DNA of 64,000 nt from Porodaedalea pini (lineage: Eukaryota; Basidiomycota; Agaricomycetes; Hymenochaetales; Hymenochaetaceae): NCBI GenBank assembly GCA_002794775.1, contig NBAY01000074.1, positions 124,001 to 188,000 of the forward strand, given 5' to 3'. The notes beneath the pieces were generated by a model. The model saw only the letters and a list, made by a program, of their open reading frames with translations, made no database searches and was not told the DNA's origin. Positions within the stretch are counted from its first letter, which is position 1, and each line of letters opens with the position of its first letter. Positions 2,905 to 64,000 of this stretch are shown here, in pieces. A program made the translations under genes and the position numbers.

Positions 2905-4072
2905 ACGGTGCTGCCATGTCACTATTACTCTCTCCATTTTTCTATTCTTGTAATTCCATCATTCCGGGCCGTCGTTTGTTTCTGCACTTGTGCCTTTAAC
3001 TTACGCGGTAAATTTATCATATTTTCGGCTGTAAGTTTTGATCACGTGATATATTTGCTCCGATAAGGTTTTTCTTCGTCGTTGTATTTGGCTGTTACGT
3101 CTGTCGCACCTCTCAATATTATTCCCTTCCAACCGCTTAACTTGCGAACTGGATGTGTGCTAGCCTTTCAAAATCGCGACAATTAACTTAGACCATTCAG
3201 CACTCGTAATCAAGCAACTCGGAGCCCGGTTTTGGTGTAATAGCGCTTAAGGTATATTAAATCAACGATGTAAGGGTGAGCCACGCAATGCACATGTCGC
3301 CATCAATATAGTTAATTATGAAGATGCTGACCCTTGCCTTTCAGCCTCAAGAACGATAACCGTCCTTGTTGCGTCAGCCAAAATATTCTTCGTGGCACCC
3401 GATCAGCTCGCTCTGGATACGAAAGCTGGCCTAAGCTGGCCTCGCAAATTTCGTTATCGCAGAGATCAAGCGGCGAGTGCATACTCGGACTGTGAAAGAG
3501 CGTCCGTCAATTGATATAGTCGTTCCTTTCGGGCATACCCCGATTCTCTACTTCCTTGGGGAAAACATAGGATGTAATTTTAGATGTCGACACGGAGTAC
3601 AGTCATGCTGGATTGGCTTGCAAAATTCATTTTCGAAAACCTAGTCGCGCTCGCCACGTACCAATGGGTCTGTATCGCCGGATCTGCCCCCTCCTCCTAA
3701 AGTCTGAGTTGTCATCACGACTTCATCAGTATATATTCCATGCCGTTCGACGCTACTCCCTGCTCCCAGAATTCCCTCTTTGTTCCCCTGCTCGGGTCTG
3801 ACGGAGTACTGGGTCTCAAGCCTGGCTATTACCAGGTGGCTTATACCTTTGCTTTGCAACGTCTGCGGCAAACCTCGCGCAACCTTTGCTTCTTCACAAC
3901 TTATAATTGTATGCCTTCCTACACTTATATGCGTCTATTGTCGTCCATCGTCTCACTCATGAACTCGCGTGTCTTGCAGATAGCATAACTAGACATCTCA
4001 GCATTCTTCTTTCGACTATTTCTGGATCTGTCCAATTCGTGCAGTCCGTCGATCATTACGCCACAAAGTACT
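2905..4072 (+). other. Intergenic region between lipase and GH30 genes
   Basis: About 1.17 kb with only short ORFs that resemble nothing I know. It must hold the lipase 3' end and the GH30 promoter, but I cannot point to a convincing element. Confidence 0.5.
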
Positions 4073-6358
4073 ATGACGATACCCCGGACACTGCGCTTGC
4101 TCGCACTAATACTAGTTGCCAGAGACACACTTGCACAAACTATCCAAGATATCGTACGTGTTCAGCTACCGATACTTAATTTAGTCTACTCACATGCTAC
4201 ATACTGCTCTGTGATACGTCCTCAGTGGGAGACCACGTCCGACAAGAAGTCCCTTTTGAATAATCTTCCTTCATCCTCCAACGTCGACTTCGGGTCGGGT
4301 AGTGGGGGAGATGCAGAGATTAACGTTGATGAGGGCACAGTGTACCAGACCGTGTACGGATTTGGTGCGAGTCTAAGTATGTGATATACTATAATTTTAC
4401 ATGACTGTTACTGACATTAGCTTCATACGCAGCGGATGGCTCGGCATATACATTAAACAAGCTAAAGGTGAGTATCTTTAAGTCCTCGTAACGGCCTGGG
4501 GTATCAACCTCTTCCTAGACGTCGAACGCCGACTCATACTCGGCGCTGCTCAAATCTATGTTCGATGGTTAGACTGTCTTTTGCATTATTATTATCTGAT
4601 GCTTAAATAGTTTTTTTGTGCCCAGTCTCGCCGTCTGCTAACTCTGCTGGAATTAATTATATACGTGTCCCACTTGGTGCATCTGACTTCTCTGCGCATG
4701 GTTAGTCGTCTACTCCCTCAGCTCCTTCATTTCCGTCGGTTCCCTAACCAGCTTTCAAACGCAATATAGATTATAACTACAACGACAAGGAGAACGATAC
4801 TTCTCTGTCGAGTTTCAGTGTCGATGATGCTCCCTCGTATTTATTTTCTACATTACAGGACATTCAGTCTGTAAACAGTGACATCAAGATACATCTGCTT
4901 CCTTGGTCTCCTGTAAGCAATCTCTTTCTTTGTACAGCTAGCTAACCGCTAAATCGAGATATAGCCGGGATGGATGAAAGATAGCGACTCCATGAACGCT
5001 GGTAATTTCTTGGATGAGTATAGTGATCAGAGTACGTTGTTTGCAATTATCACGTACCAGGCCTTTGAAACTGAGAATCCGAAGTGGCGAACTACCTGTT
5101 GAAGAGCGCACAAGCTTTCAAATCAAAGGGATTTAACCCATACGCTATATCTATCCAGGTAAGCACTGACGCTACATGACCAAAGTCGGAATGTCGAAAC
5201 ACGTCATTATTGCTTTTTAGAATGAGCCACAAAACTCAAACCCGACCCTACCATCCACGCTATATACAACGTCTGCCCAAGCTGCGGTCGCCGTGAGCCT
5301 CCGCAAGCTGCTTGACTCGAACGGAATGAATGGTATTAAAGTTATTGGATTCGAGCATAACTGGGACAATGCAGCAACGTATGCTACGCAACTGGTATGC
5401 CCCTGCTCTTCATTCGTTTTCTCCACTTCTGGATTCCAAAGCCTTTTTTAGATGAAGGAGGATGGTGCATCGGATGCTTTTGCCGGCGTTGCATTTCATT
5501 GCTACTATGGGACCGTTGAGCAACAGGATGATTGGCATAATGCGTTCCCGGATAAGGAGCTCTACTTCACCGAGTGCACAGGTGTCCTCGGCTCAGATTG
5601 GTGGGGCGACATTCAGGTAAGCGCTGGATCAACTGATGCAAAAGGTTGTTCTAATTCCATCTCCATATAGTATTATATGAACAATATGTGCGAGCCGTCT
5701 AGATTTCAGTTTAAGCAGTTTAGACACAAACTCACTGACTTCGATAGCTTTATCGGCGGCCTTCAGCATTGGGCGCAAACTGGTCTTATGTGGAATTTTG
5801 CCCTTGATCCGGAAGGGAACCCGAAACTACCTGGCGCAACGAGCTGTACGAAAGGGTGCCGTGGTGTTATACAAATCTCGTCTGACGGAACGACACAGCT
5901 GAATCAGGAGTGTACGTGTTTCTTCTAGGTTATGCGATAACTGACTGATGGAAAGGTATTCTCCCTCCCATTTCATCTCCTAGATTACTCTATGGCGCAT
6001 GCTGCGAAAGCGATCCTCCCTGTCGACTCAAGCGGTCAGTTCGGACAACGCATACAAGTTGACGTCAACGGGGGATCGCTCACGGTTGGCGCGTATTCCA
6101 CGAAGAGCTCGTCTAATGGTACACGTTACAGTCTTGTCGTGATGAACTCGTGAGTCCACGCAGCTGTGAAAATGCACTTTAATTCCGCCTGACAAAGTGG
6201 ACAGAGGAGGAAACACTTTAAATACCTCCATCAAGTTCCAAGGGAAAACGGTATAATATTTTGCATTCCCATGCATGACGAGAAGGCTGATGGATGATCA
6301 TCTTTAGGCAGCTTACTCCTTCCCAGTCGGTTTGACTACTATGTCCTGGACCGCATGA
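4073..6358 (+). CDS. Glycoside hydrolase family 30 enzyme, probably endo-beta-1,6-glucanase type
   Basis: A secreted-type glycosidase probably acting on fungal cell-wall beta-1,6-glucan. I resolve 15 exons: 4073-4153, 4226-4376, 4433-4467, 4519-4567, 4626-4700, 4770-4912, 4965-5031, 5085-5158, 5221-5394, 5452-5616, 5671-5687, 5748-5911, 5984-6149, 6205-6250 and 6308-6358. They total exactly 486 codons (485 aa). The N-terminus is a hydrophobic leader ending near ALAQ-type residues, a weak but plausible signal peptide. Family landmarks in order are GFGASLTD, the RVPLGASDF strand, LLPWSPPGWMK, the acid/base Glu227 in NEPQNSNP, the nucleophile Glu324 in FTECTG, then LMWNFALD and CRGVIQI. The C-terminal beta-domain (RYSLVVMNSGGNT) is present. 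Exon 11 is only 17 nt but restores NNIFIGG. Substrate preference within GH30 is inference. Confidence 0.9.
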
Positions 6359-15432: not shown

Positions 15433-16363
15433 TGTAGATCCTGACTTAGGGGTGTCCAGGATCAGCGGTCCTTTTGGGGATGTGATTGCGTGCTCTGGGA
15501 GGTTAGGGGTTGACTGTGGTAAGATCACTTGATGTACTGGTATGCATCGGTACGCTGCGGTATGTGCCGGTACATGTTGATATTGAGAACTGAGGTCGGA
15601 AACTCCTGTCGGGTCTGTGTTTGACCAGTATAGAGTCAGTATGCGTGGGTAATCAACACCAGTACAATCCGGTTACTGTGGGTGACGAGGTTTGGATTAC
15701 AGAGTAAGAGACGAGAGATGGTTGCAAGAGACAAGATGCTAAGACAAAGATGGAATGACTACAAGGTTTACGAGAACTAAGACAAATTGCACTCAAGTTA
15801 CCCTGTCTGAGGGAGACTCTGCGGTAGACTGACTTGTCCTCTACCTACGACATGGGGTGCATATTTATACTAAGTCCAAAGATCTATCTACAGTTAATAA
15901 TTTCCATATGGGCATAATGTGCATATTGGTTGAAACATAGAGAAGTCGAAAGGAAAAGTCATAGGTCATAGAGGTGCACATAGAGAGCATAGAAATCAGA
16001 AGAACATAGGAAAAACATAAATCATGAAGAGGAAAAATGTCCACACAGCGTCCAACCATGCTGGTGCTCCACCAGAACTCAGATCATCCAATCGGTACGT
16101 GGCTCCCATTGTCAGACTGCAGTCCGGTATGTGTCTTGGCTGTAAGCTCCATGTGACTGTGTCCATGATCATCCAGATAAGATCTCTGGTATGTTCCAAA
16201 TTGCTTTTGGAGATCTTGTGATGTGTTGCTGATGCGATCACGAGGTTCTGATTCGAAACCGGACTGATCAGGTTCAGTCTGGTACTGATTGGTGCGTGTC
16301 AAAATCAGTTCTCGAACTCTTCTGGACTGATTGGCAGTGATGGGACGATTGGCATGGCTCTAC
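15433..16363 (-). repeat. 3' LTR of A2 (family A, 931 bp)
   Basis: Starts TGTAGATCC and ends GGCTCTACA on the plus strand, the mirror of the LTR at 22146-23079. The TATA-like TATAAATATGCACC lies on the minus strand near 15855-15870, fixing the sense direction. The inner side (16364 onward) is the same internal sequence found before the A1 3' LTR at 59295-59330. Confidence 0.85.
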
Positions 16364-16521
16364 ATCTCCTGGGGTGTTTAAATCATGACTGTCCCCAGTC
16401 ACGCCTTCTCTTTGTTTGATACACACAAGAAGCTTGAACACTAATCACGCATGTTGCGACACGCGAGAGGGTGTTGGGAAAGTGGTTGTACCGACAGATT
16501 TTTCTCCTGCTTCTCCCAACC

Positions 16522-18723
16522 ATGTCGTCTCCGCACCCTGACAACAGCAACAGCAACAACCATGAGGACATGCCGCCACCTCACCTGGCACACAAAGCGC
16601 CCCACGTACCAGGGTACGTCGACAATGTCGACTACATCGAGTGTGGGAAGATCATGTGGGGTGCCCATTTGATTGAAGGGCGACTGGTCAAGATCAACTG
16701 GTATGTGCGACGCTGCCTCATGCAGTATGTGAATAGTCGGGAGCACCTCTTGGAAGGCAGTCCAGGTCGTGAATGATGCAATTGGTGGAACTGGGTGGAG
16801 TGGGCATACAGCATGAAGGTGAGTCCTCGAACTCGATCAGGCATGCATACTGGGCTGATCGTACTGATACAGCGCACCCTGGAGAGCTACTACTGGCTCT
16901 ACTGGGATTGTGTGGTCCCCAGGAAGCATCACTGGGTCGTGTCTGACCTGCACGCGTACCTCCTGGTCATGCGGGTCTGGAAAGAAATGCGGTGGGCACT
17001 GGGCAGGCTCGACCAGTTCACCGCCGACCAGCTCTATGCCAAGTTTTTTGCTGACCATGAGATGGTGAACCTCATTAAGTACCGGGGCGAGGGATTTGTC
17101 ATACCAGATGTGGACTGGCCGGATGACGTACCGTACATCGGCGGAGAGCTTGAGCAGATACTCATACCCGATGGGTATGGGTATAAGTTCATCTACCCCA
17201 TGGAGCACGAGGTGCAACCATGCTTCATCGGGGTCCTGTTGGCTGTACCAGTGGCCGAGGCATTTGTTGAATGTCTCAAAATGCCTGGTCTGCCTGAGAT
17301 CGAGGAGCGCAAGAATGTGGAGGAGGAGGAAGAGTGCACTGTCCCGTGTACCGATGGTACTGTGTCTGCACAACAGCAACAGCAGATGGGTCTGCGCAAA
17401 GTCGAGGAGAGTGCAATGCATGAGGAGTCTGGTGTACCACGTACCGGTGACGCCCCATTGGCACAACAGCAACAGCAGACGGGTGCTGACAAGTGGCAAT
17501 GGCGTACCACCATCGAAGTTGCATCTGACGACGAGGACGGAACACGTACCGGACAATGCAAAGAGCCACTGCAGCAACAGCAGCAGCAACAACCCATGCC
17601 GAGCATAGCGACAAGTGTCCCGCCCCCAGTGAATGTGCCTGGGGGACTATTTTTCAAGATGGAGGTGGCCACAGAGCACGAAGCCAAGCAGCGGGCCCAA
17701 GACGAAGCCAGTCTTGCTGCCATGTTAGCTGCTCAGGAAGAGGCTTGAAAGAAGGTGGGAGCAATGCGTCAGGTGCGTGAGCACGGCCATCGGGAGAGTG
17801 GAGGAGGGGCACATCAAGCGCGTGAGTGAGGTTGTGGGGCTCCTTGCATGAAGCAACACCGGGAGCTGCTGGTTGAGGAGGAGGGGGAGCGTCTCACCCT
17901 AGCAGAGCCTGATCCTGTTCTGATGGAGGCAGAGGGTGGTGGTCTGTCATACCACCATGCAGACGAAGGGCATACCAACAGTACGTCGGGTCCCTCGGTC
18001 ACTGTATTCGACAGGGTCGAACTGGTCAACCCGGCGACTGGTTGTCTACAGTGGGTGGGGCCACTGCCGGTCCCTCTCGAGGAGATGTGCGTGAACTGCA
18101 CGCATCGGGGGAGAGTGTGCAAGGGGCAGCCCGGTAGGGCTTGCTTCCTCTGCACGGTCATCTGGCAGATGGGGTGCTTGCTGGCAACCCAGGGATGTGT
18201 GAAGGAGGTCCAGGGCGGAAAATCAGGTGGAAAGCAGAAACGCGCCACCCGCGACAACAGCGTACCACATGCTGCGCCCAAGGCACCACAGCGGCAGCAG
18301 CAGCAGCAACAGCAGTAGCAACAGCAGCAGCCATCTGTGTTGTCTGTGCTGCCTGCGCCAGCCTCTCTGATTGTGGTGGACATGCCATCCCTACTGCCTC
18401 ATGTACCAAGGCCTGCTGCCGCATGTGTACTGCAGCAGCAGAAGCAACAACAGAGGGGGCGTGCTGCCTCGCCACCCATTGCTGGGCCCAGCCGGTTCAC
18501 CGGCACATACAAGGACCCGCGTGAGCTTGTCTTGGAGCACAACTCTGAGGACGAGTTTGACCACATCATCGTGGAGCTCATGCGCAACATCTGCGAGCTC
18601 GAGCATAGCTCACGTTGTCTCGCTGCAGAGGTGACTCGTCAGGTGGCTGAAATGGCCTCAATCCATGCATGCCTTGTGGTGCTAGAGAAGGGACAGTGGG
18701 GTGCCTGTGAGCAGGAGGACTAG
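16522..18723 (+). pseudogene. Antisense accessory gene of A2: Zn2Cys6-cluster protein with polyQ
   Basis: Lies on the strand opposite to A2 gag-pol, between pol and the 3' LTR. From ATG 16522 exon 1 runs to 16818. An intron at 16819-16872 (54 bp, GTGAGT...CAG) leads to exon 2 at 16873. The same intron exists in the A1 copy. The product has an N-terminal region without known domains (VPGYVDNVDYIE, then RTLESYYWLYWD, MRVWKEMRWALG, WPDDVPYIGGELEQ), acidic stretches, several Gln runs coded by CAG/CAA, and a cysteine cluster at 18088-18177 with spacing CX2CX6CX7CX2CX7C. A helical, charged C-terminus ends at 18723. In-frame stops at 16774 and 17746 (TGA) and 18316 (TAG in a Gln run) break it. At 17746 the A1 copy has CGC, so the TGA fits decay of an Arg codon. 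A second donor (GTGAGTGAG, 17822) may mark another intron. Confidence 0.7.
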
Positions 18724-19149: not shown

Positions 19150-20271
19150 GACTAGGTATCAGAGTCCGACTCAGAGCCGTCTTCTTCTACCAGGTCTTCC
19201 TTCATCACGCTATGTTTGTCATCATCCTGTCGAAGGATTTCGTCAAGGGGAACAGAAAGGTCAGAATGGGGAAAATAAGGAATGAGATGAAAAGCTGCAA
19301 CCTGAATCCGGGAAACCGATCCATCGAGTTCCAAGATGATATATGCTCCAGAACATGTCCTACGGACTATGACATACAGTCCTAAGTACCGGGCCTTCGT
19401 CTTTCAGTCCAACTCCTTTTCGATCTGGGTGTTCTGTACAAGTACGAGTCGACCAGGCTGGAAATCATAGTCCTTAATGACATGCTTATGGACTTTGGCG
19501 AACTGTCAAGCGTACTTGTGTCGAGCATCTCGAACCAACTGTGTGATCCTATCGAGGTCCGCCGGACGCTTCTGTAACTGGTGTGCCCGGGTCGCTATCA
19601 GTTCCTCGGTACGCATCGGGGAATCCAACAGCGGAGTAAGATAAGTGGCCTTGGTGAGATCGAACGGAAGTACAAGCTCGACTCCATGAACCATGTAGTA
19701 TGGCGACATACTGGTCAATTTCTGGATTGTGATGCACTCGGCCCAGAATACCGAGTAAGCGTGCTCGTGCCACTTGGATGTGTTCCCGTTGGCTGCCTTG
19801 ATCAGGGCTTCCTGGACGTTGTAGTGCCGTCATTCAACGATCCCATTGGCATGAGAGTTATACACTGAGATCTTGATGTGCGAAATGTGGTACCGATCCT
19901 GCAACCAATGAAGTGCAGCGATAAATGGAGTACCGTTATCAGTAACAAGTTCAGGACACACGCCGTACTGACACAGTAATTCCTGAAAAATGAACTGCCC
20001 TATCATGTGACCAGTCTGCTTTTGCAACAGTCGGAACTCCGGGTAACTGGACAAGGAGCACTGTGCATGCACGATGTAGTGAAAGCCTCCTGAAGCAGGC
20101 ATGTGCTTCATGTTGATGTGGATCTGGGCAAACAACATTGGTACGTCTGGTACCAATGGTGGTATCGACACTTTTGTAGTCTGGCACACCTGACAGATAT
20201 GACACATACACATGAAGTATTTGACATCTTCCAAAATCAACAGCCACCAAAACTGATCCAGCAATCGAGCA
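19150..20271 (-). pseudogene. A2 integrase core and C-terminal region
   Basis: Continues the integrase after repeat E. The minus-strand translation shows LDQFWWLLILEDVKYF, the CHICQVCQTTK half of the zinc-binding motif, and HINMKHMPASGGFHY where the first catalytic Asp is expected (here N). It then has VTDNGTPF with the second Asp and NSHANGIVE with the catalytic Glu, which is followed at once by a TGA where an Arg codon is expected. The tail ends in an acidic stretch (MKEDLVEEDGSESDSDT). Several stops make it inactive. No chromodomain is present. Confidence 0.75.
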
Positions 20272-48647: not shown

Positions 48648-50574
48648 TGTAGAGCCATGCTGGTCATCCCATCACCGCCGATTGCTCCAGAAGCACTCGA
48701 GAACTGGTTCTGATGTGTACCAATCAGTACCAGACTGAATCCGATCGGTCCGGTTTTGAATCAGAACCCCGCAATTGCATCAGCAACACATTCTGAGACC
48801 TCCGAATGCATGACGGAACGTACCGGAGATCTTATCTGAATGATTTGGGATGCAGTCACATGGAGCATACAGCCAAGATGCATACCAGACTGCTGTCCGA
48901 CAATGGGGACCACGTACCGATTGGACGATCTGAGTTCTGGTGGAGCACCGGTATGGTCGGACGCGATGTGGATGTTTTTCTTCATTATGATTTATGTTTT
49001 TCCTATGTTCTTCTGATTTCTATGCTCTCTATGCATGCCTCTAGGACCTATGACTTTTCCTTTCGACGTCTCTAGGTTTCAACTGATATGCACATTATGC
49101 CTGTATGGAAATTATTAACTGTAGATAAATCTTTGGACTTAGTATAAATATGCACCCCATGTCGTAGGTAGAGGATAAGTCAGTTCTACTGCATAGTCTC
49201 CCTCAGATAGGGTAACTTGAGTGTGACCTGTCTTAGTTCTCGTAAAACCCATAGTCGTTCCATCTTCGTCTTAGCATCTTGTCTCTCAAAACTGTCTCTC
49301 GTCTCTTACTCCGTAACTCAAACCTCGTCGCTCATCATGATCACATTGTACCAGTGTTGATTACCTGCACGTACCGACTCCGTACCGGTGAAAGGTGACT
49401 GTACGGGTCTACTGGCAGACTCGGACCTGGTTGAGTTCGGCCACTGGGGGTTCACTCTAATGTGTCTGATGGAGGGGATAGTGTCAGGAAGTGTGGGGAA
49501 GTGTAATAGAATACTCGGGGCTAGGTGTCAACTCGAGGACATGAGTACAAAGGACGACCGGCAAAACGTGCCTAAATGCGGTCGGAGAACAAAGAGCAAC
49601 TACGATCTTGACAACCCGGGCTCGGAAACTTGCCAGTGAAGACAGGAATCGATACTATTCATCAAGACAATTCTGAATCTGAAAAGACCTCGAGACGCGA
49701 TGCAGAATTGACGGAGATATAGCAGTTGCACTGGTTGCGGCTGGCGGAACTCCCGGAACCAAAAGCTATTTTCGTAGCTCTACGACGCAGGCTCGGAATC
49801 GTGCAAGAAAAGACAGTGTTCGAAAGCGATTTTCGACGAGATTAAGAATCTGAAGAGAGCTCTGGAAACGGATAAGAACTGAGGGCGATATAGCGAAAGC
49901 AAGATTTGGCCGAAAACGGGACTCGAGATGGAACGGACGGAACGGACGGAACGACACTGAACGGCGACGGAGACGAGAACTAAAGACTGGGACTGACTCA
50001 GGGGAACTAAACTTGTATTTTTGAGACATTTACATGAGTGTTTAAATAACCATCAGAGGGTTGAGCCTCTGAGCGGCGTACAAAGGACACAAAGACAGAC
50101 CAGAGGCTCTAGCCAAACAACACCAAATAGCCGGAACTCGGAGCCGTAACTCGAGAACATGAGTAATTAAGCTTCGGGAGGCTCGGAACAATACCAGATG
50201 TGACCCAAAACGGACTTCGGTGGCTCACCGGTGCAGAACCAAGCTGTATGCGTTGAGTTAATCCAGCCAAACACTGAAACTGTCCTGAAATGCATCGGGG
50301 ATACTTGTAAGACTGTCCTGAGTCGAGTCGAACCTAATAGAGCCGATTCCAAGGCCAGCGGCATCGGGATCTCCACACCGGTCAAGTACAGAGCCAACAG
50401 GAGTACCTGACCTTAGCACTCAATATCGACGCGTACTGGCACGTACCGAAGTGTACCGACGCGTACCGGTACATTGAGTGATCTCACCGCAGTCAACCCC
50501 TAACCTCCCAGAACAATGCGATCATGTCCCCAAAAGGACCGCTGATCCCAGACACCCCTAGGTCAGGATCTACA
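48648..50574 (+). repeat. 5' LTR of A1, split by B LTR number 3
   Basis: TGTAGAGCC...GGATCTACA; 934 bp once the insertion and its duplicated 4 bp are removed. Decamer array at 50433-50472. Confidence 0.9.
49389..50377 (+). mobile_element. Family B solo LTR number 3 (989 bp)
   Basis: TGAAAGGTG...CTCCACA inserted in the A1 5' LTR with a perfect 4-bp duplication CCGG (49385-49388 and 50378-50381). Same orientation as B number 2. Confidence 0.9.
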
Positions 50575-50576
50575 AG

Positions 50577-50596
50577 TGGAGCCCACCACGAGGGGG
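50577..50596 (+). promoter_or_regulatory. Primer-binding site of A1
   Basis: TGGAGCCCACCACGAGGGGG two bases after the LTR. It starts TGG as expected for pairing with a tRNA CCA end. Unlike C and D it has no complementary match in its LTR that I can see. I cannot name the tRNA. Confidence 0.7.
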
Positions 50597-50633
50597 GTTA
50601 AACGTGTCGTGATCCTCATGTCCTCCGCGTTCG

Positions 50634-52980
50634 TTGTGTGGGACATCTCAGCAGACTATTGAACCCCCTCATCCATATCGAACCACTAATGCTTGGCAGT
50701 TTAGATGCCATATTGAAGAGCGTGCTACGGATTCAGATTCTGAGTCCATAGAGCATTACCTTGATTTGGACTTAGAACAACTTAACACGTCATTTGACTC
50801 CGGAGCGCAGTCTCCCTTCTCATTAATCAGCTCGTCCGCAGTTCCGTTGACAGTCCCCTCAGCCCCGTCGACTAGCATGTCACCACTAACCAAGCTCGAG
50901 AGCAACAACCCAGATGATACCGCTCAGCTCGTCTTACTGGATCCTAGTTTGTCCGTACCGGGACAGACGTCTTCGCCCGTTGGTACGTCGTCAGTTCCGT
51001 CAAACCCAGTTAACACACAGGCTACACAGCCCCGGACATCGACCATAGTAGCGCCGGTGCAGCCAGTACCTCCAGTTAGAATCATGTCAAACCGTCCTCC
51101 ACGTCGCAGAGCTAGAGACGCTCCCTTCTTCGGTGGACATAACCCGTTAGACCTTCCTCGGTACTTCGAGGATATCGAATATATTGCGACTGACTGCAAC
51201 TTAGACAACGTGGCGAAGATCTGGTACACGAAGTATTATGCTTCTAGTTCTGTAGCTGAGCTGTGGGATACCGCCGATGGTGTCGGTATGGGAGCGAACA
51301 ATTGGACGAAAGCGAAGGAGGCGATTATAGTGTTTTACCCAGCTTTGGCGCCTGGTGTGTGCTTCACCCGGGAAGACCTCGATAGGCTCATCGAGGGTTG
51401 GAGGAGTAAAGGAATACAGTCAAGGGAGGATTTCGGAGAATACAAGAGAGAGTTCATGGTGAGGTCGAAGTATTTGGAGCGCAATTCGATCATTTCAGCA
51501 GAGGAAGCGGCATGCGCGTTCGTCCGAGCCTTTACGAGCAAACTGAAGGATAGGTTGCAGCAACACCTAGAGATGAAGGAGCCCGACCCGTCCCTGGGCA
51601 AACCTTATATGATCAATTTGGTGGTAAAGCACATGGACTACATCTTGGCCGGTACAGTTTTCGACGACGTACCAACGACTCGAGCGCCCGACCCGACGAA
51701 TCAGTCAAAGGTAAAGTCGGAGGAAGTAGATATTGGTACGGTGTGGGAAGCGGTCAAGAACATTCAGGTTCAGGTGCAGTCACTCGGGCGAAGACCACCG
51801 CCAGCAACAACGTCCCAGAGGAGTCCCGGGTGTGCATTCTGTGGTGACACGAGCCACTACATTAGGTTGTGCCTGAAGGTGCTAGAGTATATCCAGGCAG
51901 GGAAGTGTGTGAGGGATGCGAATGGAAAGGTGACGCTACCAAACGGAGGGTTCGTACCGAGCACGGCGGTGGGTAATAATTTGATGGAGAAGATAGATTC
52001 GCTGCGTCAGGAGATCAGTATGGTCTCAGTTAACCTCATAGAGGTGGTGACATCGACAACAACGGGTACCGAGGTGTCGCAAGGCCCAGCAATGATGGCC
52101 GAGATTGTGGAAGAAGTATCAGATGAGGAGTTGGAGGTGGCGCAGTACAAAACATTGTTGAATGAAGCAAAGAAGCGAGCATCGGTGGCAAAGAAAGCCA
52201 AGTTCGATGGAGTCGAGATACCGGTACGACCGAAACCTGGTCCAGCGAACGTACTGACGACCTCGAATGCGAAATCGAGCGTATCAAAACCAGCAGGTAA
52301 CCTGAACATTCCCCAGGAGAGCAGATCGACAACGAATTTGGGCGGAAACCAGCCACAGTTCCAGTACGTCGCTCCAATCGAGGATCTGGTGACGTTTAGA
52401 AGGTATTGTCGAGGACGTTAGACTCAGCGGTAACGGTGACACAGCAGGAACTCCTCGCTCTGTCTTCAGATATGAGGCAGCAGATGAAGGAGTTGACAAC
52501 AGTGAAGCGGTACGTGGTCGGTAACGTCAATCTCGTCAAGTCGGACCAGGAAGGGAGCGAAGTTGCGGGGTACCGAGCGGTACCGGAGTCATTGGCTCCA
52601 GTTCTCTTGGAGTCCGGACCGGTGGCACACAATGTGCTTCCCATCTGCATAATTAAGGTATTGATTGAGGATGCCGTCAAAGCAGAAGCCATACTCAATC
52701 AAGGGGCGGTGGTATGCATCATTCGGGAAGACATGTGGGAGAAGTTAGGAATTCATTTGGATCCGGATCACACGATGACGCTCGAAGCCGTGGATGCAGG
52801 GAAGTCATCGACATTGGGAAGGATTCGAGATGCCAGATTCAGGATAGCGGGTGTGGATTTGAAGTTGCAGGTTCAAGTGGTTTCGGTGGCGCCATTTGAG
52901 GTATTGCTGGGACAACCGTTTTTTGCTCTTACCGAATGCAAAACAAAGGATTTCTTGTCGGGCAATCAGCATATAACCAT
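50634..52980 (+). pseudogene. Gag-protease of A1, frameshifted
   Basis: The gag frame 50634-52421 has the core FFGGHNPLDLPRYFEDIEYI to PSLGKPYMINLVV and a CCHC knuckle CAFCGDTSHYIRLC. Compared with A2, one base is missing near 52392-52396, moving the reading into another frame (52406-52980). That frame carries the protease-like region ILNQGAVVCIIREDMWEKLG to FEVLLGQPFFALTECKTKDF. As in A2, Asn replaces the expected catalytic Asp. Ends at TGA where A2 reads CAA. The initiator is unclear, since the open frame starts with TTG. Confidence 0.8.
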
Positions 52981-52989
52981 CACAGATCC

Positions 52990-55900
52990 CTGAGATCGCA
53001 ATTGCAGGAGCAAGGTGTCGACTGGTATCCAGGTGTTCTGGTGTGCTCTGGAATCAGGTTTTCACAAGTCGAGGAACTGACACATTGGTGCCGGCGAGAC
53101 GAGTGGAAACCAACGGTATGGAAGACATGCTGTGGAGTCGATCCGCCAGTACGTGTACCGAACTCGTGTACAGATGTTTTATCTTTGCATTTTAATGACC
53201 CTGATTATTTATCTCGTCGTCCAACCCCTTCTCAGACCAAAATTAATTCTCAATTTGTTCAACCCATTTACAGTTTTCAACAATTGTCCTCTAATGTTTT
53301 AAATCAATCCGATTCGACTATTTCCCGTTACGTTTCCCCGAGTTATACCTTTAATACCCCAACTCCGTTTATTTATTCGCAGAGATTGAAATTTCTTTTA
53401 TCTCCTTGTACCATTGCTTTGGATGCTTCTTTGGACACTTTTGGTTCGGTGGTGTTGGATTCGGCAGAGGATGAAGGAAGTGTTTTGGCGTACAAGCAGG
53501 TGGCGCAGAAGGTCCATCCCATTCCAGGAGTATTACCGGAGGAGTTTCATATAGTTCGAAGGCGACATCCTGACCTGTTGGCGGACATGCCAAAGTTGCC
53601 AACAAAACTGGTACCATTCGTACCAATGGGAAAGTTTACGCAGGAAAGGCTGAACGCAATGGATTTGGATCCCGGCAGATTTCTGTGGGACGAAGAGAAG
53701 AAGTTGGTGGTAAATCTGATCATGTTGCAGGAAGGAGCATTTGCATGGTCGGAGACGGAGAGAGGAACCTTGGATCCAACGTATTTCGATTCTGTACGCA
53801 TACCAATGGTGGTGCACATACCATGGGTGCGGAAGAACATACTGATCCCCCCTGGGATACTCAAAAAGACACTAAACATACTCAGGGAGAAGATCGCCAC
53901 CGGAGTTATTGAACCATCGAACTCGTCGTACCGCTCGAGGTGGTTTTGTGTGGTGAAGAAAGACGGAGCATCCTTACGGTTCATTATTGACTTACAGGAT
54001 CTGAACGGGGTGACCATTCGAGATTCGGCCATACCGCCGGACATCGAGACGCTAGTAGATGTGTGCAGCGGGCACACGTGTTACATGGTACTTGATCTCA
54101 CTGTTGCTTTTGACCAGTGGATGCTCGATGAATGGTCCCGAGACTTAACGACGTTCCAGACCCCGCTCAGTACGTTTTGACTGAAGGTGTTACCGATGGG
54201 ATACACGAATTTGCTGCAGATTCTCCATGGAGACATCACATTTATTCTCAGTGACGAGATCCCTAAGGTGGCACAGCCGTTCGCAGACGATGTGATTACG
54301 CAAGGAGGGTTTACACAGTACAAGTGTACCGACAGAGGGTTCGAAACGATTCCTGAGAACCTGGGCATCTGCTGGTTCGTCTACGAACACTTGTGCGACA
54401 TAAACCGAGTGCTGCAGAGGATGAGGAAAGTGGGTGGTACATTTTCCGGGAAGAAATTCCAGGCGTGTACTGATTTGGCGATATTTTTGGGGAATAAACT
54501 CACATACCGAGGACGCAAACTGGACAATTCAAAGGTTCAGAAAGTGTGGGATTGGCCCCCATGTCGAACAATGACCGAGGTGAAGGGATTTCTTGGTATG
54601 GTTGGTGTGTTGAGGGTATTTATTAAGGATTTCACGAAGAAAGCTCGACCATTGACCTGACTTACGTGTAAAAACAACATATTTGATTGGGGACCGGAAG
54701 AGCAGGATTTGATGGACACATTGAAGGACGCCGTTATCGACTGCCTGGCGCTGTGTGCAATTGACTATGGGTCGGACAGAGCGGTTATCTTAGTGGTGGA
54801 TTCGTTGATCATAGGAGTAGGGTGGATGTTAGGCCAGGATCACCCGGACGGTAGGAGAAGGATTAATCGGTTCGGGTCGATCAACTGGAACTCGGTACAG
54901 GCAACGTACTCCCAGCCAGAGATCAAGTTATTCGGGTTGTTTAGGGTGTTGAGGGCGGTGAGGTTGTTTATTTATGGAGTTAAGCTCCTGGTGGTCGAGA
55001 TGGACACAGCGTACGTCAAAGGGATGATTAACAATCCGGATCTACAGCCAAACACGACGATAAACCGGTGGATCACAGGAATTCTCCTTTTCGACTTCGA
55101 GCTTCGCCATGTACCGGCCGCGGAATTCACATGTACCGATGGACTGTTGAGGTGGCAAGCCACGCCAGAGGACCCACAGGAGGAAGACGACTATGAAGAG
55201 TGGATTGATGCAGCATATGCATTTTTGTATGGAGCAGTGTTGAGTACTGACATCGAAGAAGGGTCTGGTACAGCCACAGATCCTCAGGGGCAGCAGTTCC
55301 CGGCCTCGGATTTGGTGAAGTCGCAAGATAAGTGATTAGAGTTGGTTTGGTACCTCCTTGAACACGGAAGGAAGCCCTTGGAGATCGATGAGAAGCGCTT
55401 CCCCTCGTTTGTCCGGTACGCCTCCGGATTCTTCGTGCAAGCGGGACGACTTTGGTGAAAGACCCGATGAGAGCATCCCCAGTTGGTCGTTGAGCCGGAA
55501 CGCCGGTGGTCGCTTGTTCAGCAGGCTCACAACGATCTCGGACACAAGGGGGTGTACTCGGTATGCACTCGATTGCTGGATCGGTTCTGGTGGCCATCAA
55601 TTTTGGAAGACGTCAAATACTTTGTGCGTACATGTCATATCTGTCAGGTGCGCCAGACTACGAAAGTGTCGATACCACCATCGGTACTGGACGTACCAAC
55701 GTTGTTCGCCCGGATCCACATCGACATGAAGCACATGCCCGCTTCAGGAGGCTTTCACTACATCGTACATGCACGGTGCTCCTTGTCCAGTTACCCGGAG
55801 TTCCGACTGTTGTGAAAGCAGACTGGTCACATGATTGGGCAGTTCATTTTTCAGGAATTACTGTGTCGGTACGGCGTGTGTCCTGAACTCATTACCGACA

Positions 55901-56685
55901 ATGGTACTCCATTTATCGCTGCGCTTGATTGGTTGCGGGATCGGTACCACATTTCGCACATCAAGATCTCGGCGTATAATTCTCAGGCCAATGGGATCGT
56001 CAAACGACGGCATTATGATGTCCAGGAAGCCTTGATCAAGGCAGCTGACAGGAACACTTCCAAGTGGCATGAGCACGCTTACTCGGTTTTCTGGGCTGAG
56101 CACATAACAATCCAGAAATTGACCGGTATGTTGCCGTACTACATGGTTCATGGAGTCGAGCCGGTACTTCTGTTCGATCTCGCCGAGGCCACTTATCTTA
56201 CTCCGCCGTTGGATTCCCCGATGTGTACTGAGGAACTGATAGCGACCCAGGCGCGCCAGTTACAGAAGCGTCCGGTGGACCTCGATAGGATTGCGCAGTT
56301 GGTTTGAGATGCTCGACACAAGTATGCTCGACAGTTCGCCGAAGTCCATAAGCACGTCATCAAGGACTACAATTTCCAGCCCGGTCGACTCGTACTTGTA
56401 TGGAACACCCAGATCGAAAAGGAGTTGGACCGAAAGACGAAGGCCCGGTACTTAGGACCGTACGTCGTTGTCCGTAGGACACGTTCCGGAGTGTATATCA
56501 TCTCGGAACTCGATGGATCGGTTTCCTGGATTCAGGTTGCAGCTTTTCGTCTCATTCCTTACTTTCCCCATTCTGACATTTCTGTTCCCTTTGACAAAAT
56601 CCTTCGACAGGATGACAATGAACATAGCATGATGAAGGAAGATCTGGTAGAAGAAGACGGCTCTGAGTTGGACTCTGATACCTAG
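52990..56685 (+). pseudogene. Pol of A1: RT, RNase H, integrase
   Basis: In order: linker (CTDVLSLHFNDPDYLSRR), RT (SSYRSRWFCVVKKDGASLRF, FADDVITQGG), RNase H (VVDSLIIGVGWMLGQDHPDG, FELRHVPAAEFTCTDGLLR), integrase zinc domain (HNDLGHKGVYSV, CHICQVRQ), core with HIDMKHMP and ITDNGTPF, and ANGIVKRRH where the third catalytic residue should be Glu but is Lys. The tail ends MKEDLVEEDGSELDSDT. TGA stops at about 54178, 54658, 55333, 55813 and 56305 break it. Confidence 0.85.
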
Positions 56686-56699
56686 TCACGAATTCTGAT

Positions 56700-56996
56700 T
56701 ATGTTTGCCATCCAAGGTACCGGTACGCGTACCGACACGTACCGACGCCTCTTTATTTTATTATCTTTTAATCAATTATGATCCATTTATGTTTTGACCA
56801 TGGAACCGTTTTAAATTCTTTCATACGGAACACTTTCTCGATTATCGAAACATTAACTATATGGCATATCTTTGATTTCCCTTCTGGTACATTAGTGAAA
56901 TCACAAATGGACACTTAAGGACGATCTTTCTTTTTCTTTTTCTTTTTTCGTCCACAGGACCAAGTCGTACCAACACGTACCAACACGTACCGACTA
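56700..56996. promoter_or_regulatory. Convergent 3' region of A1 with decamer arrays at both ends
   Basis: AT-rich spacer between pol and the antisense gene. GTACCG decamers at 10-bp spacing at 56717-56748 and 56967-56996; the latter touches the stop codon of the antisense gene. A T-rich run with C interruptions lies at 56925-56948. Confidence 0.55.
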
Positions 56997-59175
56997 GTCC
57001 TCCTCCTCCCTAGTGACCCACTTCCCCTTCTCGAGCGCCACAAGGCATGCGTGGATTGAGGCCGCTTTGGCCGCCTGACGAGTTGCCTCCACAGCAAGAC
57101 GATGTGAGCTACACTCAAGCTCGCAGACGTCATGCACGAGCTCCACGACGACGTGGTCGAACTTGTCCTCAGAGTCGTGCTCCGAGACGAGCTTGCGCGG
57201 GTCCTTGTAGGCGCCAGCGAACCGGCTTGGCCCAGTGACAGGCGGCGAGGCAACGCGCCCCCTCTGTTGTTGCTTCTGCTGCCGCAGTATGCGTGCGGCA
57301 GTGGGCCTTGGTATGCGAGGCGGTGGGGACAGCGTGTCCACCACAATCGGAGAGGCCAGCGCAGGCAGTGCAGATGACACGGACGGCTGCTGTTGCTGCT
57401 GCTGCTGCTGCCGTGGTGCCTTGGGCACGGCGTGCGGTACACCTTCGTCGCAGGTGGCGCGTTTCTGCTTTCCACCCGACTTTCCACCCTGGACCTCCTT
57501 CGCACGTCCCTGGGTCACCAGCGAGCATCCCGTCTGCCAGACGACCGTGCAGAGGAAGCAAGCCCTACCGGGCTGCCCCTTGCACACTCTCCCCCGACGC
57601 GTGCAGTTCACGCACGTCTCCTTGAGAGGGACCGGCAGTGGCCCCGCCCACCGTAGGCGACCAGTCGCCAGGTTAACCAGTTTGACTCCATCGAACATGG
57701 TGACTGTGGGACCCAACGTACCATCAGTACGTCCCTTGTCTGCGTGGTGGTATGACAGGCCACTACTCTCAGCCTCCATCGGAACCGGATCGGGCTCCGC
57801 AGGGGTGAAACGCTCCCCCTCTTCTTCAACCCACGGCTCCCAGCATTGCTTCATGCAAGGGCCCCCACGACCTCACTCACGCGCTCGATGCGCACCTCCT
57901 CCACTCTCCCAATGGCCATGCTCATGCGCCCGTCGCATCACTTCCGCCTTCTTGCGAGCCTCCTCCTGAGCGGCTAACATGGCAGCGAGACCGGCCTCAT
58001 CTCACGCCCGCTGCTCGGCTTCGTGCTCCACGGCTGCCTCCATCTCAAAGAATAGGCCCCCAGGCACATTTGCTGGGGGCGGGACACTCATCACTGTGCT
58101 CAGTGCGGATTTTTGCTGCTGCTGTTGCTGCAGCGGCTCTTTGCGTTGTCTGGTACGCGTTGCGTCCTCGTCGTCAGATGCGATTTCGATGGTGGTATGC
58201 CATCGCCACTTGTCAGCACCCGTCTGCTGTTGCTGTTGTGCTGACAGGGCATCACTGGTACACGGTACGCTGGACTCCTCCTCATGCATCACACTCACCT
58301 CAACTTCGCGCAGACCCGTCTGCTGTTGCTGTTGTGCAGATGCGGTACTGTTGGTATGCAGGACGGCATGCTCCTCCTCCTCGATCTCACGCTCCTTGAC
58401 TTCGGGCAGACCAGGTGTTTCGAGACATTCGATGAACACCTCAACTGCTGGTACAGCTGACAGGACCCCGACGAAGCGCGGTTGCACCTCGCGCTCCACG
58501 GGGTAGGTGAACTTATACCCATACCTGTCGGGTACGAGTACACGCTCAAGCTCTCCGCCGATGTACGGTATGTCATCTGGCCAGTCCATGACCAGTACGA
58601 CAACTCCCTCACCCCAGTACTTGGTGAGGTTGACTGTCTGGTGGGCGGCAAAATACTGACCATAGAGCCGGTCAGCGGTGGGCTTGTTGAGCCCATCCAG
58701 CGCCCACCGCATCTCCTTCCAGACCCGCACAACCAGGAGGTACATCCGCAGATCAGACACGATTGGGTGGCGCTTCGCCGGCACCACGGAGTCCCAGTAG
58801 AACTGGTAGTAGCTCTCCAGGGTGTGCTATTTTGAGTCGGTCAGCTCGGTACGTGTGCTTGATTGAGTTTCGAGGACTCACCTTCATGCCATATGCCCAC
58901 TCAGCCCACTTCCACCATTCCCCGACCTCGCAACCCCGACTCCCCGCCAGTAACGTCTCCCGCCATTTCACATACCGCCCAAGGCAGCGTCGCACGTACC
59001 GGTCGATGTCGACCAGCCGTTCCTCAATCTTGCGGGTGTCCCATGTGATCTTCTCGCGCTCGACGGTGTCAACATTGTCGATGTACCCTGGTACGTGGGG
59101 TGCCTTGCATGCCAGCCGAGGCAGCACCATGTTGTGGTTGTTGCTGCTGCTGCTGTCGCGGTGTGGAGACGACAT
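56994..59175 (-). pseudogene. Antisense accessory gene of A1: Zn2Cys6-cluster protein with polyQ
   Basis: Starts at ATG 59175 on the minus strand (MSSPHRDSSSSNNH). The intron at 58881-58827 (55 bp, GTGAGT...TAG) is at the same position as in A2 and joins YGMK to HTLESYYQFYWD. Then come a conserved region (RVWKEMRWALDG, WPDDIPYIGGELERVLV), acidic and polyQ stretches, and the cysteine cluster at 57614-57525 (CX2CX6CX7CX2CX7C). A helical C-terminus (FDHVVVELVHDVCELE) ends at TAG 56994-56996. TGA near 58001 interrupts where A2 has CAA, and the frame also breaks around 57890. Conservation of the protein between A1 and A2 is high despite these breaks. The six-Cys spacing fits GAL4-type clusters; DNA binding is inferred. 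Confidence 0.72.
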
Positions 59176-59330
59176 GGTTGGAAGAAGCAGGAGAAAAACC
59201 CATCGGTACGACCACTTTTCCAATGCCCTCTCGCGTGTCTCGACATGCATGATCAGTGTGATCTTCTTGCGTGTATCAGAAGAAGAGAAGGTGTGACTGG
59301 GGACAGTCATGATTTAAATGCCCCGGGAGA

Positions 59331-60265
59331 TGTAGAGCTGTGCCGGTTGTCCCATCACCACTGATCGCTCCAGAAGCACTCGAGAACTGGTTCCGACGTG
59401 TACCAATCAGTACCGGACTGAATCCAATCGGTCCGGTTTCGAATCAGAACCCCGTGATCACATCAGCAACATGTTCCGAGACCTCCGAATGCATGACGGA
59501 ACATACCAGAGATCTTATCTGGATGATTTGGGACGTGGTCACATGGAGCATACAGCCAAGATGTGTACCGGACTGCTGTCCGACAACAGGGACCATGTAC
59601 CGATTGGACGATCTGAGTTCTGGTGGAGCACCGGTATGGTCGGACACGATGCAGACATTTTTCTTCATTATGATTTATGTTTTTTCCTATGTTCTTCTGA
59701 TTTCTATGCACTCTATGCACGACTCTATGACCTATGACTTTTCCTTTCAACTTCTCTATGTTTCAACTGATATGCATGTTATGCCCGTATGGAAATTATT
59801 AACTGTAGATAGATCTTTGGACTTAGTATAAATATGCACCCCATGTTGTAGGTAGAGGACAAGTCAGTTCTACCGCAGAGTCCCCCTCAGATAGGGTAAC
59901 TTGAGTGCGATCCATCTTAGTTCTCATAAAACCCGTAGTTGTTCTGTCCTCGTCTTAGCATCTCATCTCTCGAAACCGTCTCTCATCTCTTACTCCGTAA
60001 CTTGAACCTCGTTGCTCGTCGTGATTACATCGTACCGGTGTTGATTACCCGTGCATACTGACTCCGTACCGGTCAAGTACAGAGCCGACAGGAGTACCAG
60101 ACCTTAGCACTCGATATCAACATGTACCAGCACGTACTGAAGTGTACTGACGCGTACTGGTACGTCGAGTGATCTCACCGCAGTCAACCCCTAACCTCCC
60201 AGAGCAACGTGATCATGTCCCCAAAAGGACCGCTGATCCCAGACACCCCTAGGTCAGGATGTACA
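59331..60265 (+). repeat. 3' LTR of A1 (935 bp)
   Basis: TGTAGAGCTG...GGATGTACA. TATA at 59827, decamer array 60124-60163. Followed by the ATGG duplication and the rest of the A2 PBS. Confidence 0.9.
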
Positions 60266-61921: not shown

Positions 61922-64000
61922 TCTCCTCGGGCATTTTAAACAGTGACTGTCCCTAGTCACTCCATCCTTCTGAATCCTCTCGTGTTTGTGGGATAAGGCA
62001 TTGTATGTTGGCCTCGTGTGGTCCGCACCCTCTCTCTCACCCTCATCCATCACAACATCAAAATGTCATTTTACCAGCTTGGCATTTCAGCAGAGCGCTT
62101 CCAGGCGATGGCGCAGCTCAAGCAAGCGGTTCGGGAATGGGAGCGAGGCATCCTCGAGCGGTGGATGGAGTTCCCAATCCAGTCATTGATGCCAGAGGTA
62201 GTACATGCCTGGGTAGTCAGCTTGGCCGAATTTGACATGAGTATTAACGTTCACCATGAGTGACTCTATCCCTGACGCTTTCGTTTAGCACATGCGGTCT
62301 GAGCTTCATCGCCGTATGACCGAGGTTCATCATCTTGACATGTGGACTCATCTGCCAGAGAGTCGCTGGCAGCAGATGCACGACTACCTGAATGTGGCAA
62401 GGGATCACTACGGGATGCAGGATAATGAGACCATGCACGCCCTGGCTGATGCAGCAATAGCTGCAGAAATGGTGGTGACAGCATGAAATGAACCTGGGAG
62501 TACGGAGTTGGACCGGGAGTTGGCTGCATTTGATCAGCATGAACGAGTTCATCAGGCTAGTGAGACTGAGCGGCTTGATGAGCTGATTTGGTTTGGACAG
62601 CAGTCTCTCCCCATATCGTTGATGCGGCGCAGCATGTCTGCCTAACCAACAGCGCCTGATCTTGGGTCTCCTGGCAGAAGTGATCTGGCTGGTTCCACTT
62701 GGACAAGAAACACACAACAGGTGGAACTGGCAGAATGGGCACAACGAGCAGAACAGATGGAATGACTGCAACAAGCATGACAGATGAGATCTGGTCCTGA
62801 TGAAACTGATCTACCAATCGAGGACGATCAGAGTGATGCATCTTGTACTTCTTCGATGCGGGCATGGGTGAAAAAGGAGTTGGCAACTTGTGCTGCTGCC
62901 CACGCCCATCGTCATCCAGTTATTCCTCCTTGGGCACCAAGCGAAGAGTCAACTTGGATGGTCATCAACAAGAGTCCTGCTAGTCCTCCACCTGGTTGTC
63001 GTGGGGAATCAGATTACGGGGGAAACGGCTCAGACTCAACTGTTCGTGGCTTGTGGGGTCAATCCATGAGTGCTGCTTTGGGCGACTACAGCAACAGCAG
63101 CAGTAACAAGGGTCAGGTTGACGATGGTGAAGATGATGAGGACAAAGACAAGGATGTTGACGATGATGCCGAAGGAAGCAGCGATGAAGGAAGCGACGAC
63201 GAGGAGGCCGAGGAAGACAAGGACAACAGCAACAGCAACAACATCAATTCTGCTGGTTGTAATCCATGCCGGATGCAAGGTATAGAGTGCACTGGGACTC
63301 CTGGGAAGGTGTGCACAAATTGTCGGAAGCTTCAGATTAGGTGCAAGCTGTTGACGCATGGCTGGGCAATGAACTGTGTCATGCATGAGTGGGTTGCGCA
63401 GGCTCCGCCTCCTTGATCACAGTCAGCTGCTGGGTCATCTTCGAGACCTGCTACGAGCGTGGCACCAAGTACTCCAGTGAGACTGCCTCCTGGAGTGTCG
63501 ACGAGGGCTCCTGCGAGAGCATCAATGAGAGCGTCGACAAGGCCATCAACAGGTCCAGTGACAGCTGGGCCTAGTCATCTGGCTTGTCCTAGTGTTGGGG
63601 TCAGCTCATTTGATGACAGGGTTGAGGAACTGTCTGTTCACTCGTCAGAGGCGGAGTTGGATTGGGAGTTGTCTGTCCTGGGTCAGGACGCTCGCATGCT
63701 GGAACACACTGCTTCAGAGCTGGAGTGGCAGGCGGTGTTGCTGCAAGATAGAGCAGCCACCATGCAGTCTAATGTCGTGTCGATGCAGCGGGCTCAGGAG
63801 TCTAGATGGGGTCAGGAAGAAGGCTTGGGGAAAGGAAAGGGGAAGGGAAAAGTGAGGTAGAGTCGGGATGTGTGGAATGCACACAATGCATGCAATGCAC
63901 GAGACCCTTTATTTAGTCAAAAAAAGAAAACAGAAAAAGAAAAAAAAATTGTACTTCTATAGTTTGTTTCTGAATTAAATGTTTTCTGAGTTTTGTGTTA
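61922..64000 (-). mobile_element. Internal 3' region of a further A-type element (A4), runs off the window
   Basis: Begins with the same LTR-proximal internal block as A1 and A2 (GTGACTGTCCCTAGTCAC). It carries a diverged opposite-strand zinc-cluster gene in the same place. The gag-pol of A4 would lie beyond 64000. Confidence 0.6.
62062..63860 (+). pseudogene. Antisense accessory gene of A4: diverged Zn2Cys6-cluster protein
   Basis: Begins near ATG 62062 (MSFYQLGISAERFQAMAQLK). A probable intron lies near 62243-62288, then HMRSELHRRMTEVHH. After stops near 62484 and 62643, an open frame 62784-63416 holds a Ser-rich part and a long Asp/Glu stretch (EDDEDKDKDVDDDAEGSSDE). The cysteine cluster at 63258-63344 has the exact spacing CX2CX6CX7CX2CX6C. 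One TGA at 63414 separates a Ser/Pro/Thr-rich part and a helical C-terminus (FDDRVEELSVHSSEAELDWE) ending in a GKGKGKGK basic tail. The N-terminal domain differs from A1 and A2, so the cluster and overall plan are the conserved part. Exons are uncertain. Confidence 0.6.

Follow-up and report, generated by a model that had tools for sequence, protein, structure and literature searches.

A spliced antisense gene for a six-cysteine protein between pol and the 3' LTR of Gypsy-type retroelements in Porodaedalea pini

Introduction

Antisense additional open reading frames (aORFs) are known from plant Gypsy elements, namely maize Grande with its gene23, rice RIRE2, and Retand with TRP28. As far as the available text of the two papers goes (PMC7264820, PMC11963269), the gene23 product is nuclear and its gene has its own upstream promoter, TRP28 is thought to bind DNA, and the role of the antisense genes in Grande and Retand is unknown. 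Among retroviruses, human T-cell leukemia virus type 1 (HTLV-1) encodes HBZ in a spliced antisense gene driven from the 3' long terminal repeat (LTR), and the available part of PMC10186651 describes HBZ as a nuclear regulator that lowers the output of the 5' LTR. Here we analyze a 64,000-nucleotide stretch of the genome of the basidiomycete Porodaedalea pini (contig NBAY01000074.1, positions 124,001 to 188,000; hereafter the window), in which three Gypsy-type elements, A2, A1 and A4, carry between pol and the 3' LTR a spliced gene on the opposite strand that encodes a protein with six characteristically spaced cysteines.

Fungal Ty3/Gypsy elements were surveyed in 2011 in "LTR Retrotransposons in Fungi" (PMC3248453), and the features given in its available text, LTRs, gag and the order protease, reverse transcriptase (RT), RNase H, integrase, match the elements described here; a search of its main text for the terms antisense, zinc, extra ORF and opposite strand returned none of them. 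Our literature search found no fungal element with an antisense zinc-cluster gene, which is weak evidence of absence because subscription literature lay mostly outside it and the sources were available only in part. With antisense extra genes known in plants and a few retroviruses, a fungal case with a six-cysteine protein tentatively appears to be new.

Results

In A2 the gene occupies positions 16522..18723 of the window on the + strand (exon 1 16522-16818, intron 16819-16872, exon 2 16873-18723), with its ATG at 16522, a 54-nt GT-AG intron and a stop codon at 18721-18723; it was aligned with 15 other copies. Its counterpart in A1 lies on the - strand at 56994..59175 (exon 1 59175-58882, exon 2 58826-56994) and runs from an ATG at 59175 through a 55-nt intron at 58881-58827 to a stop codon that ends at 56994, and that in A4 lies on the + strand at 62063..63860 (exon 1 62063-62236, exon 2 62289-63860), with its ATG at 62063, its stop codon at 63858-63860, and a 52-nt intron at 62237-62288 whose donor is AT instead of GT. 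The six-cysteine motif stands at 18088..18177 in A2 (CVNCTHRGRVCKGQPGRACFLCTVIWQMGC, + strand), at 57525..57614 in A1 (CVNCTRRGRVCKGQPGRACFLCTVVWQTGC, - strand) and at 63258..63344 in A4 (CNPCRMQGIECTGTPGKVCTNCRKLQIRC, + strand), and when stop-free frames of at least 40 residues were scanned in all six frames, the pattern C-x2-C-x6-C-x5..16-C-x2-C-x6..9-C occurred in exactly three ORFs of the window, namely these genes. Coordinates and motif scan thus bear out the original prediction that all three elements carry an antisense gene in this place and that A1 and A2 have a GT-AG intron in common; the intron place is found in A4 too, with a donor decayed to AT. The prediction had counted three A-type elements, which holds for A1 and A2, but A4 belongs to a separate subfamily, B, since the end of its pol, just past the window edge, shares 58% identity with the A-type query and belongs to a lower tier of identity. 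The prediction also passed over the state of the copies, all of which are pseudogenes by premature in-frame stops, four in A2 (16774, 17746, 17827 and 18316), two in A1 (58004 and 57875) and five in A4 (62484, 62643, 62763, 62778 and 63414).

Across the genome, 53.3 Mb in 201 contigs, the gene belongs to the element. A query made from the end of pol gave at least 141 matches in three identity tiers (A, B and C), 120 of which covered at least 140 query residues and were used to count linkage, the 21 shorter matches being left out. A gene match on the opposite strand lies within 4 kb downstream of 101 of these 120 pol ends (28 of 36 in tier A, 20 of 21 in B and 53 of 63 in C); among the C-tier links, two that were assigned to C1, the third gene subfamily, are genes of the smaller L060 type that the C1 query matches weakly, and one C-tier pol end is accompanied by a B gene. 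Seen from the gene, 134 of 154 matches (43 A, 36 B, 70 C1 and 5 of other types, two of the latter overlapping C1 matches) have pol on the opposite strand within 6 kb on their 3' side, 20 are without it, and none has it on the same strand. The spacing between gene and pol is nearly constant within each subfamily, mostly 815-845 in A, 829-876 in B and 283-331 in C1, with a few outliers. By query, at least 43 matches were obtained with the cluster part of the A2 gene, at least 36 with the A4 gene, at least 70 with the C1 gene, at least 24 with the L060-type gene (20 of them weak and around the cluster alone) and at least 1 with that of a further type, L059; these counts are lower bounds, and split genes are counted more than once.

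Purifying selection acts on the gene in lineages that go on copying, and copies decay once they are inserted. For A, selection was measured on the 16 of 30 fetched loci that align over the full length; the B pieces (6) and C1 sequences (9) were mostly picked for open frames, which hides stops. The median pairwise ratio of nonsynonymous to synonymous substitution rates (dN/dS) among the A genes is 0.417 in frame; the reverse frame that shares third positions with the gene (rev2) gives 0.479, and the remaining four frames give 0.860, 0.863, 0.886 and 0.936. Changes were also placed on a tree by parsimony, with transversions, non-CpG transitions and CpG transitions separated. The internal A branches then gave an omega of 0.32 for transversions (20 synonymous and 24 nonsynonymous changes; binomial p 3e-4), 0.42 for non-CpG transitions (81 and 69; p 1e-7) and 0.80 for CpG transitions, and the tips gave 0.63 for transversions, 0.60 for non-CpG transitions (p 6e-4) and 1.10, close to neutral, for CpG transitions (p 0.17). 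In C1, non-CpG transitions gave 0.33 on internal branches (24 synonymous, 16 nonsynonymous) and 0.27 on tips, and transversions 0.51, from counts too small to judge. In B, non-CpG transitions gave 0.59 on internal branches and 0.41 on tips, and transversions 0.82 and 0.65, respectively, high enough that the case for selection is weaker there. That CpG decay at third positions could have produced the low dN/dS as an artefact was considered and rejected, the signal sitting in the non-CpG classes.

These data also bear on two other explanations. If the functional product were the antisense RNA, controlling copy number as a transcript or as small RNA, one could point to antisense transcripts that the available text of PMC7264820 discusses as regulators of some retroelements, but the purifying selection seen here follows codon phase, and 12 of the 16 aligned A copies show no frameshift-like gap despite their differing lengths; an RNA product is already disfavoured, and we hold it to be very unlikely. 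The broken state of every window copy would suit a chance ORF or a single accidental capture, which the genome-wide linkage to pol and the dN/dS values nevertheless reject, and against which the homology of the A and B proteins and the selection on B and C1 also speak, so that we give it next to no weight. The original prediction had itself named outcomes that would tell against it, among them dN/dS near 1 and one chance capture. Because the gene is element-borne, keeps its intron and is under selection, neither of these is what we find: in-frame values on A are clearly below 1, and similar genes occupy this position in two smaller types as well as in three numerous subfamilies.

The A intron, in phase 0, reads GTGAGT...RCTGAY...AG in all 15 aligned loci that cover the place (L011 is without that stretch); the B intron, 51-52 nt and likewise in phase 0, has the donor GT in four of seven aligned loci and AT in three, A4 among them; and C1 has at least two introns, one of them directly before the cluster exon, whose GT and AG limits, read by eye, are kept in 3 of 3 loci. 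Exon 2 is open over 609-617 residues in 8 of the 30 fetched A loci, and the same eight are those among the 16 aligned that show neither a stop nor a frameshift-like gap; the predicted product of one unbroken A copy has 715 residues. In A, 28 of 30 loci have the six-cysteine motif in an open stretch of more than 100 residues, and in B 6 of 7 do (the exceptions being L010, L019 and L055); it is also present in 9 of 9 C1 sequences read.

The protein, about 700 residues long, consists of an N-terminal part, polyglutamine (polyQ) and acidic stretches, the six-cysteine cluster (spanning roughly residues 502-531 in an A copy of 715 residues), a basic patch, which in A is a KRKR after the cluster, and a long C-terminal helix. 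The Zn2Cys6 rule, C-x2-C-x6-C-x5..12-C-x2-C-x6..9-C, describes all types, with x7 in the middle in A and B, x8 in C1 and L059, and x8 in the middle with x7 at the end in L060. The GAL4-like spacing that had been predicted is therefore there, but membership of the family is not borne out: a Pfam scan of five antisense proteins (A, B, C1, L060 and L059) found no domain at cut-off, and for Zn_clus (PF00172), with its cut-off of 21 bits, B and C1 scored 10.6 bits and A, L060 and L059 gave no match. B also matched TFIIA over its repeat-rich middle (E 7e-4, 20.1 bits, cut-off 36.2). AlphaFold models are poor, with a mean predicted local distance difference test (pLDDT) score of 39.6 for A and 46.2 for B, the more confident parts being the C-terminal helices (C-terminal helix about 60-89) and, in A, a helix in the middle of the protein. 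In view of the Pfam and model results we call the product a six-cysteine, zinc-cluster-like protein and not a Zn_clus member. A search of solved structures gave two matches for A (E 0.91 and 8.4) and none for B and C1 at E up to 10, thus no convincing relative; searches of a protein library with the whole A protein, B residues 1-250 and A residues 370-450 found no relative, in a library that may hold few fungi, and a scan of viral contigs found none either.

Fungi have many Zn2Cys6 regulators, and the cysteine spacing agrees with the proposal that the gene is a captured host zinc-cluster transcription factor still acting on host genes. PF00172 exceeds its cut-off at 28 places in this genome and at 0 in 14 control genomes, but by their coordinates none of the 28 is an A, B or C1 gene match, the element genes staying below the cut-off, and the protein library that may hold few fungi offered no relative. 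Nor is there a clear solitary host relative among the 20 of 154 gene matches without pol within 6 kb: of the five fetched (L002, L008, L024, L026 and L029), L002 and L026 have an A-type pol at 8.9 kb and 7.6 kb, respectively, and L002 and L029 keep the palindrome block of the LTR side described below. The captured host gene of the original prediction is thus left unsupported, no host relative having been found and the 21-bit cut-off not being reached, and we consider it quite improbable. Separately, Zn_clus exceeds its cut-off with 27.1 bits each at G000:C64:151287, C64:155563 and C88:374, each with a TAG, and with 26.8 bits at both C44:322601 and C136:56732; given such identical scores at several places, it looks as if other repeated elements carry zinc-cluster genes too.

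Decay of the copies is dominated by CpG transitions, which make up 932 of 1192 single-base codon changes on the A tips. Compared over 935 sites, the two LTRs of A1 show 90 transitions and 8 transversions, a pattern that suggests methylation-type decay of these elements. Since copies decay mostly in this way, the host probably methylates them, and a factor that binds element DNA and relieves host methylation or heterochromatin, instead of acting as a classical activator or repressor of transcription, would therefore pay; plant VANDAL transposons are known to encode anti-silencing proteins. Such an anti-silencing or chromatin factor is the main rival to the reading that we favour below, in which the protein regulates its own element, but CpG decay is the sole pointer to it and none of the five antisense proteins has a Pfam domain at cut-off; we judge it rather unlikely.

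Two candidate cis signals lie in the interval that separates the 3' LTR from the antisense ATG. In A2 these are a TATA-like TTTAAAT at 16377..16383 and a palindrome, TGACTGTCCCCAGTCA, at 16386..16401 (both + strand); A1 has the palindrome at 59294..59309 on the - strand, with TTTAAAT at 59318-59312, and A4 has it at 61944..61959 on the + strand (TGACTGTCCCTAGTCA). TTTAAAT and TGACTGTCCCYAGTCA are found in this interval in 16 of 16 aligned A loci, and TTTTAAA with the same palindrome in 7 of 7 B loci. In the window the palindrome has three matches at up to two mismatches (0.25 expected), and an 18-nt form has 53 matches in the genome, against 0 for a reversed control; 43 of the 53 are followed within 4.5 kb by an A or B gene match on the same strand. 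Among the copies elsewhere, the one at C2:893613 keeps the LTR-edge block, and on reading no six-cysteine ORF was found there; the others are at G000:C3:1709774, C7:803470, C13:541249, C17:538387, C30:483787, C35:109853, C48:328586, C65:90502 and C169:15807. The palindrome may act as an operator, or it may be a structural signal that adjoins the polypurine tract, for example in priming.

A1 is present as an entire insertion. From LTR to LTR it spans 48648..60265 on the + strand, with ATGG at both outer sides (a 4-base match that chance alone gives 1 time in 256). Its 5' LTR (48648-49392 plus 50371-50574, interrupted at 49393-50370) reads TGTAGA...TCTACA and its 3' LTR (59331..60265) TGTAGA...TGTACA, so that, as in Ty3/Gypsy elements, there are two LTRs with a TG start and a CA end and a short target-site duplication. 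Within the LTR pair follow gag (stop-to-stop frame 50613..52421, with a CX2CX4HX4C knuckle read by eye) and the remains of pol at 52400..56682, in the Ty3/Gypsy order protease, RT, RNase H and integrase (integrase, and its place in the order, read by eye), both on the + strand, and the antisense gene on the - strand. Pfam models of Asp_protease_2 and RNase H reach their cut-offs, RT (16.8 of 29.6 bits) and SH3_Tf2-1 (12.4 of 30 bits) stay below. In A2, the 3' LTR, beginning TGTAGA, lies at 15433..16364 and the end of pol, the C-terminal part of the integrase with two in-frame stops, at 19155..19814, both on the - strand.

The element types are related to different degrees. Homology between the A and B proteins extends from the cluster through the C-terminal helix (97%, E 1.3e-10, 170 columns), and the match between the L060 type and C1 lies around the cluster (95%, E 6e-8); B and C1 match in the cluster region only (E 0.002, probability 13%), as do L059 and C1 (E 0.013, probability 3.4%). 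In a tree of 23 integrase sequences A groups with B, and C1 with both L060 and L059; D1 stands next to A and B (support 0.95), and D2 is separate. In the 3' flanks of three D1 elements (L064-L066) no six-cysteine gene was found; D2 pol ends are without a gene match in the linkage count only, their flanks being unread. Given the tree and the distribution of the six-cysteine gene, one ancient gain with losses and more than one gain are both possible.

Further antisense ORFs were seen on the way. An antisense ORF found once in the genome, at L059:723-1415 (- strand; G000:C113), has the six-cysteine cluster followed directly by a leucine-zipper-like helix, with a weak bZIP_2 match (16.2 bits, cut-off 22.3); the adjoining pol end has an open frame of 1203 residues, with one TGA in the match. 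In D1, L064 and L066, two copies 97.9% identical, have antisense ORFs without the six-cysteine motif right after pol (- strand, about 133-820 in L064). A chromodomain-type Gypsy element, L094 (G000:C2:2142600-2144900; pol end + 2-665, SH3_Tf2-1 79 bits, chromodomain read by eye), has an antisense ORF at - 917-1309 that is 32% identical to the antisense ORF of the D1 element L065 (- 444-938), and these two probably represent a second antisense gene family in this genome, unrelated to the six-cysteine family. Finally, L057 (G000:C13:501740-506840; + 3182-4423 and - 3-2390) has a B-type pol end without a gene match and with nested insertions downstream, namely an A-type gag-like ORF on the other strand and two non-LTR reverse transcriptase-like ORFs, read by eye.

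Discussion

We think it fairly probable that this is an accessory antisense gene of a Gypsy-type clade that encodes a nuclear regulator of its own element. Transcription of the gene would be driven by a promoter of its own next to the 3' LTR, with the TATA-like TTTAAA and a pyrimidine-rich leader, and antisense transcription would allow its intron to escape the splicing of genomic RNA. The protein could dimerise via its C-terminal helix, enter the nucleus with the help of the KRKR patch that follows the cluster in A, bind element DNA, possibly at GTGACT(N6)AGTCAC beside its own start, and tune transcription of the element, much as antisense HBZ does for HTLV-1.

Several observations weigh against a regulator of this kind. 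At 19 of the 120 pol ends no gene match was found on the opposite strand within 4 kb; these include a contig edge (C72), an element with inserted elements (C13), two C1-type ends, and D1 and D2 relatives. The dN/dS values cover the antisense gene of A, B and C1, and in rev2 the internal non-CpG transitions also give 0.42; in that frame internal transversions give 0.75, with 39 stop changes versus 10 in the true frame, and its apparent constraint comes from the third positions that it has in common with the gene. Besides the Zn_clus scores below cut-off, the short helices that the A and B models place at both CxxC pairs have a pLDDT of only about 39-49, and A and C1 match weakly and in the cluster region only (E 0.009, probability 4.5%). 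Searches upstream of the C1 gene and of the start presumed for the L060 type did not find the palindrome, and ten of its 53 copies are without a recognised A or B gene, which is why it may serve another cis function.

If the protein is indeed a nuclear regulator of its own element, this fungal Gypsy clade would have evolved independently the plan of the deltaretroviruses, in which a nuclear DNA-binding regulator is encoded by a spliced antisense gene close to the LTR, and the interval from pol to the 3' LTR would be a standing site for antisense genes, filled by six-cysteine genes in A, B, C1, L059 and L060 and by an unrelated ORF in the D1 type and the chromodomain-type Gypsy element; we see the chances for and against this wider proposal as even. 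Given 101 pol ends linked to the gene, a measured signal of purifying selection, introns that are conserved and, in two subfamilies, a candidate DNA target, the purpose of retroelement antisense genes becomes testable in culturable organisms. Annotators would do well to bear in mind that, in genomes of this kind, some six-cysteine proteins labelled "hypothetical" may belong to retroelements.

The fungal protein resembles GAL4-type Zn2Cys6 proteins (PF00172) in its cysteine spacing, its polyQ and acidic stretches and its long C-terminal helix, and differs from them in not reaching the profile cut-off and in lying beside a retroelement pol. GAL4-type clusters, moreover, are usually found near the N-terminus, unlike the late position of the cluster here.

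With the plant aORFs the gene shares its place between pol and the 3' LTR and its antisense orientation, whereas its host is a fungus and a six-cysteine cluster stands in place of TRP28, the Retand domain (PF04195) for which none of the five antisense proteins gave a match at E up to 10. Introns occur here in three subfamilies, whereas the main text of PMC7264820 and PMC11963269, as available, does not contain the word intron, and selection has been measured for the fungal antisense genes. HBZ and the APH proteins of HTLV-2 to 4 follow the same antisense plan but are unrelated, HBZ being a bZIP protein and the fungal one a six-cysteine protein; Pfam found no bZIP in the A, B, C1 and L060 proteins, and the L059 match stays below cut-off. 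The viral antisense genes are expressed from the 3' LTR as spliced transcripts; in the fungal elements introns, and in A and B a TATA-like box, were read in the DNA. Taken together, the comparison suggests that fungal retroelements may have evolved an antisense regulator of their own, much like that of some human retroviruses.
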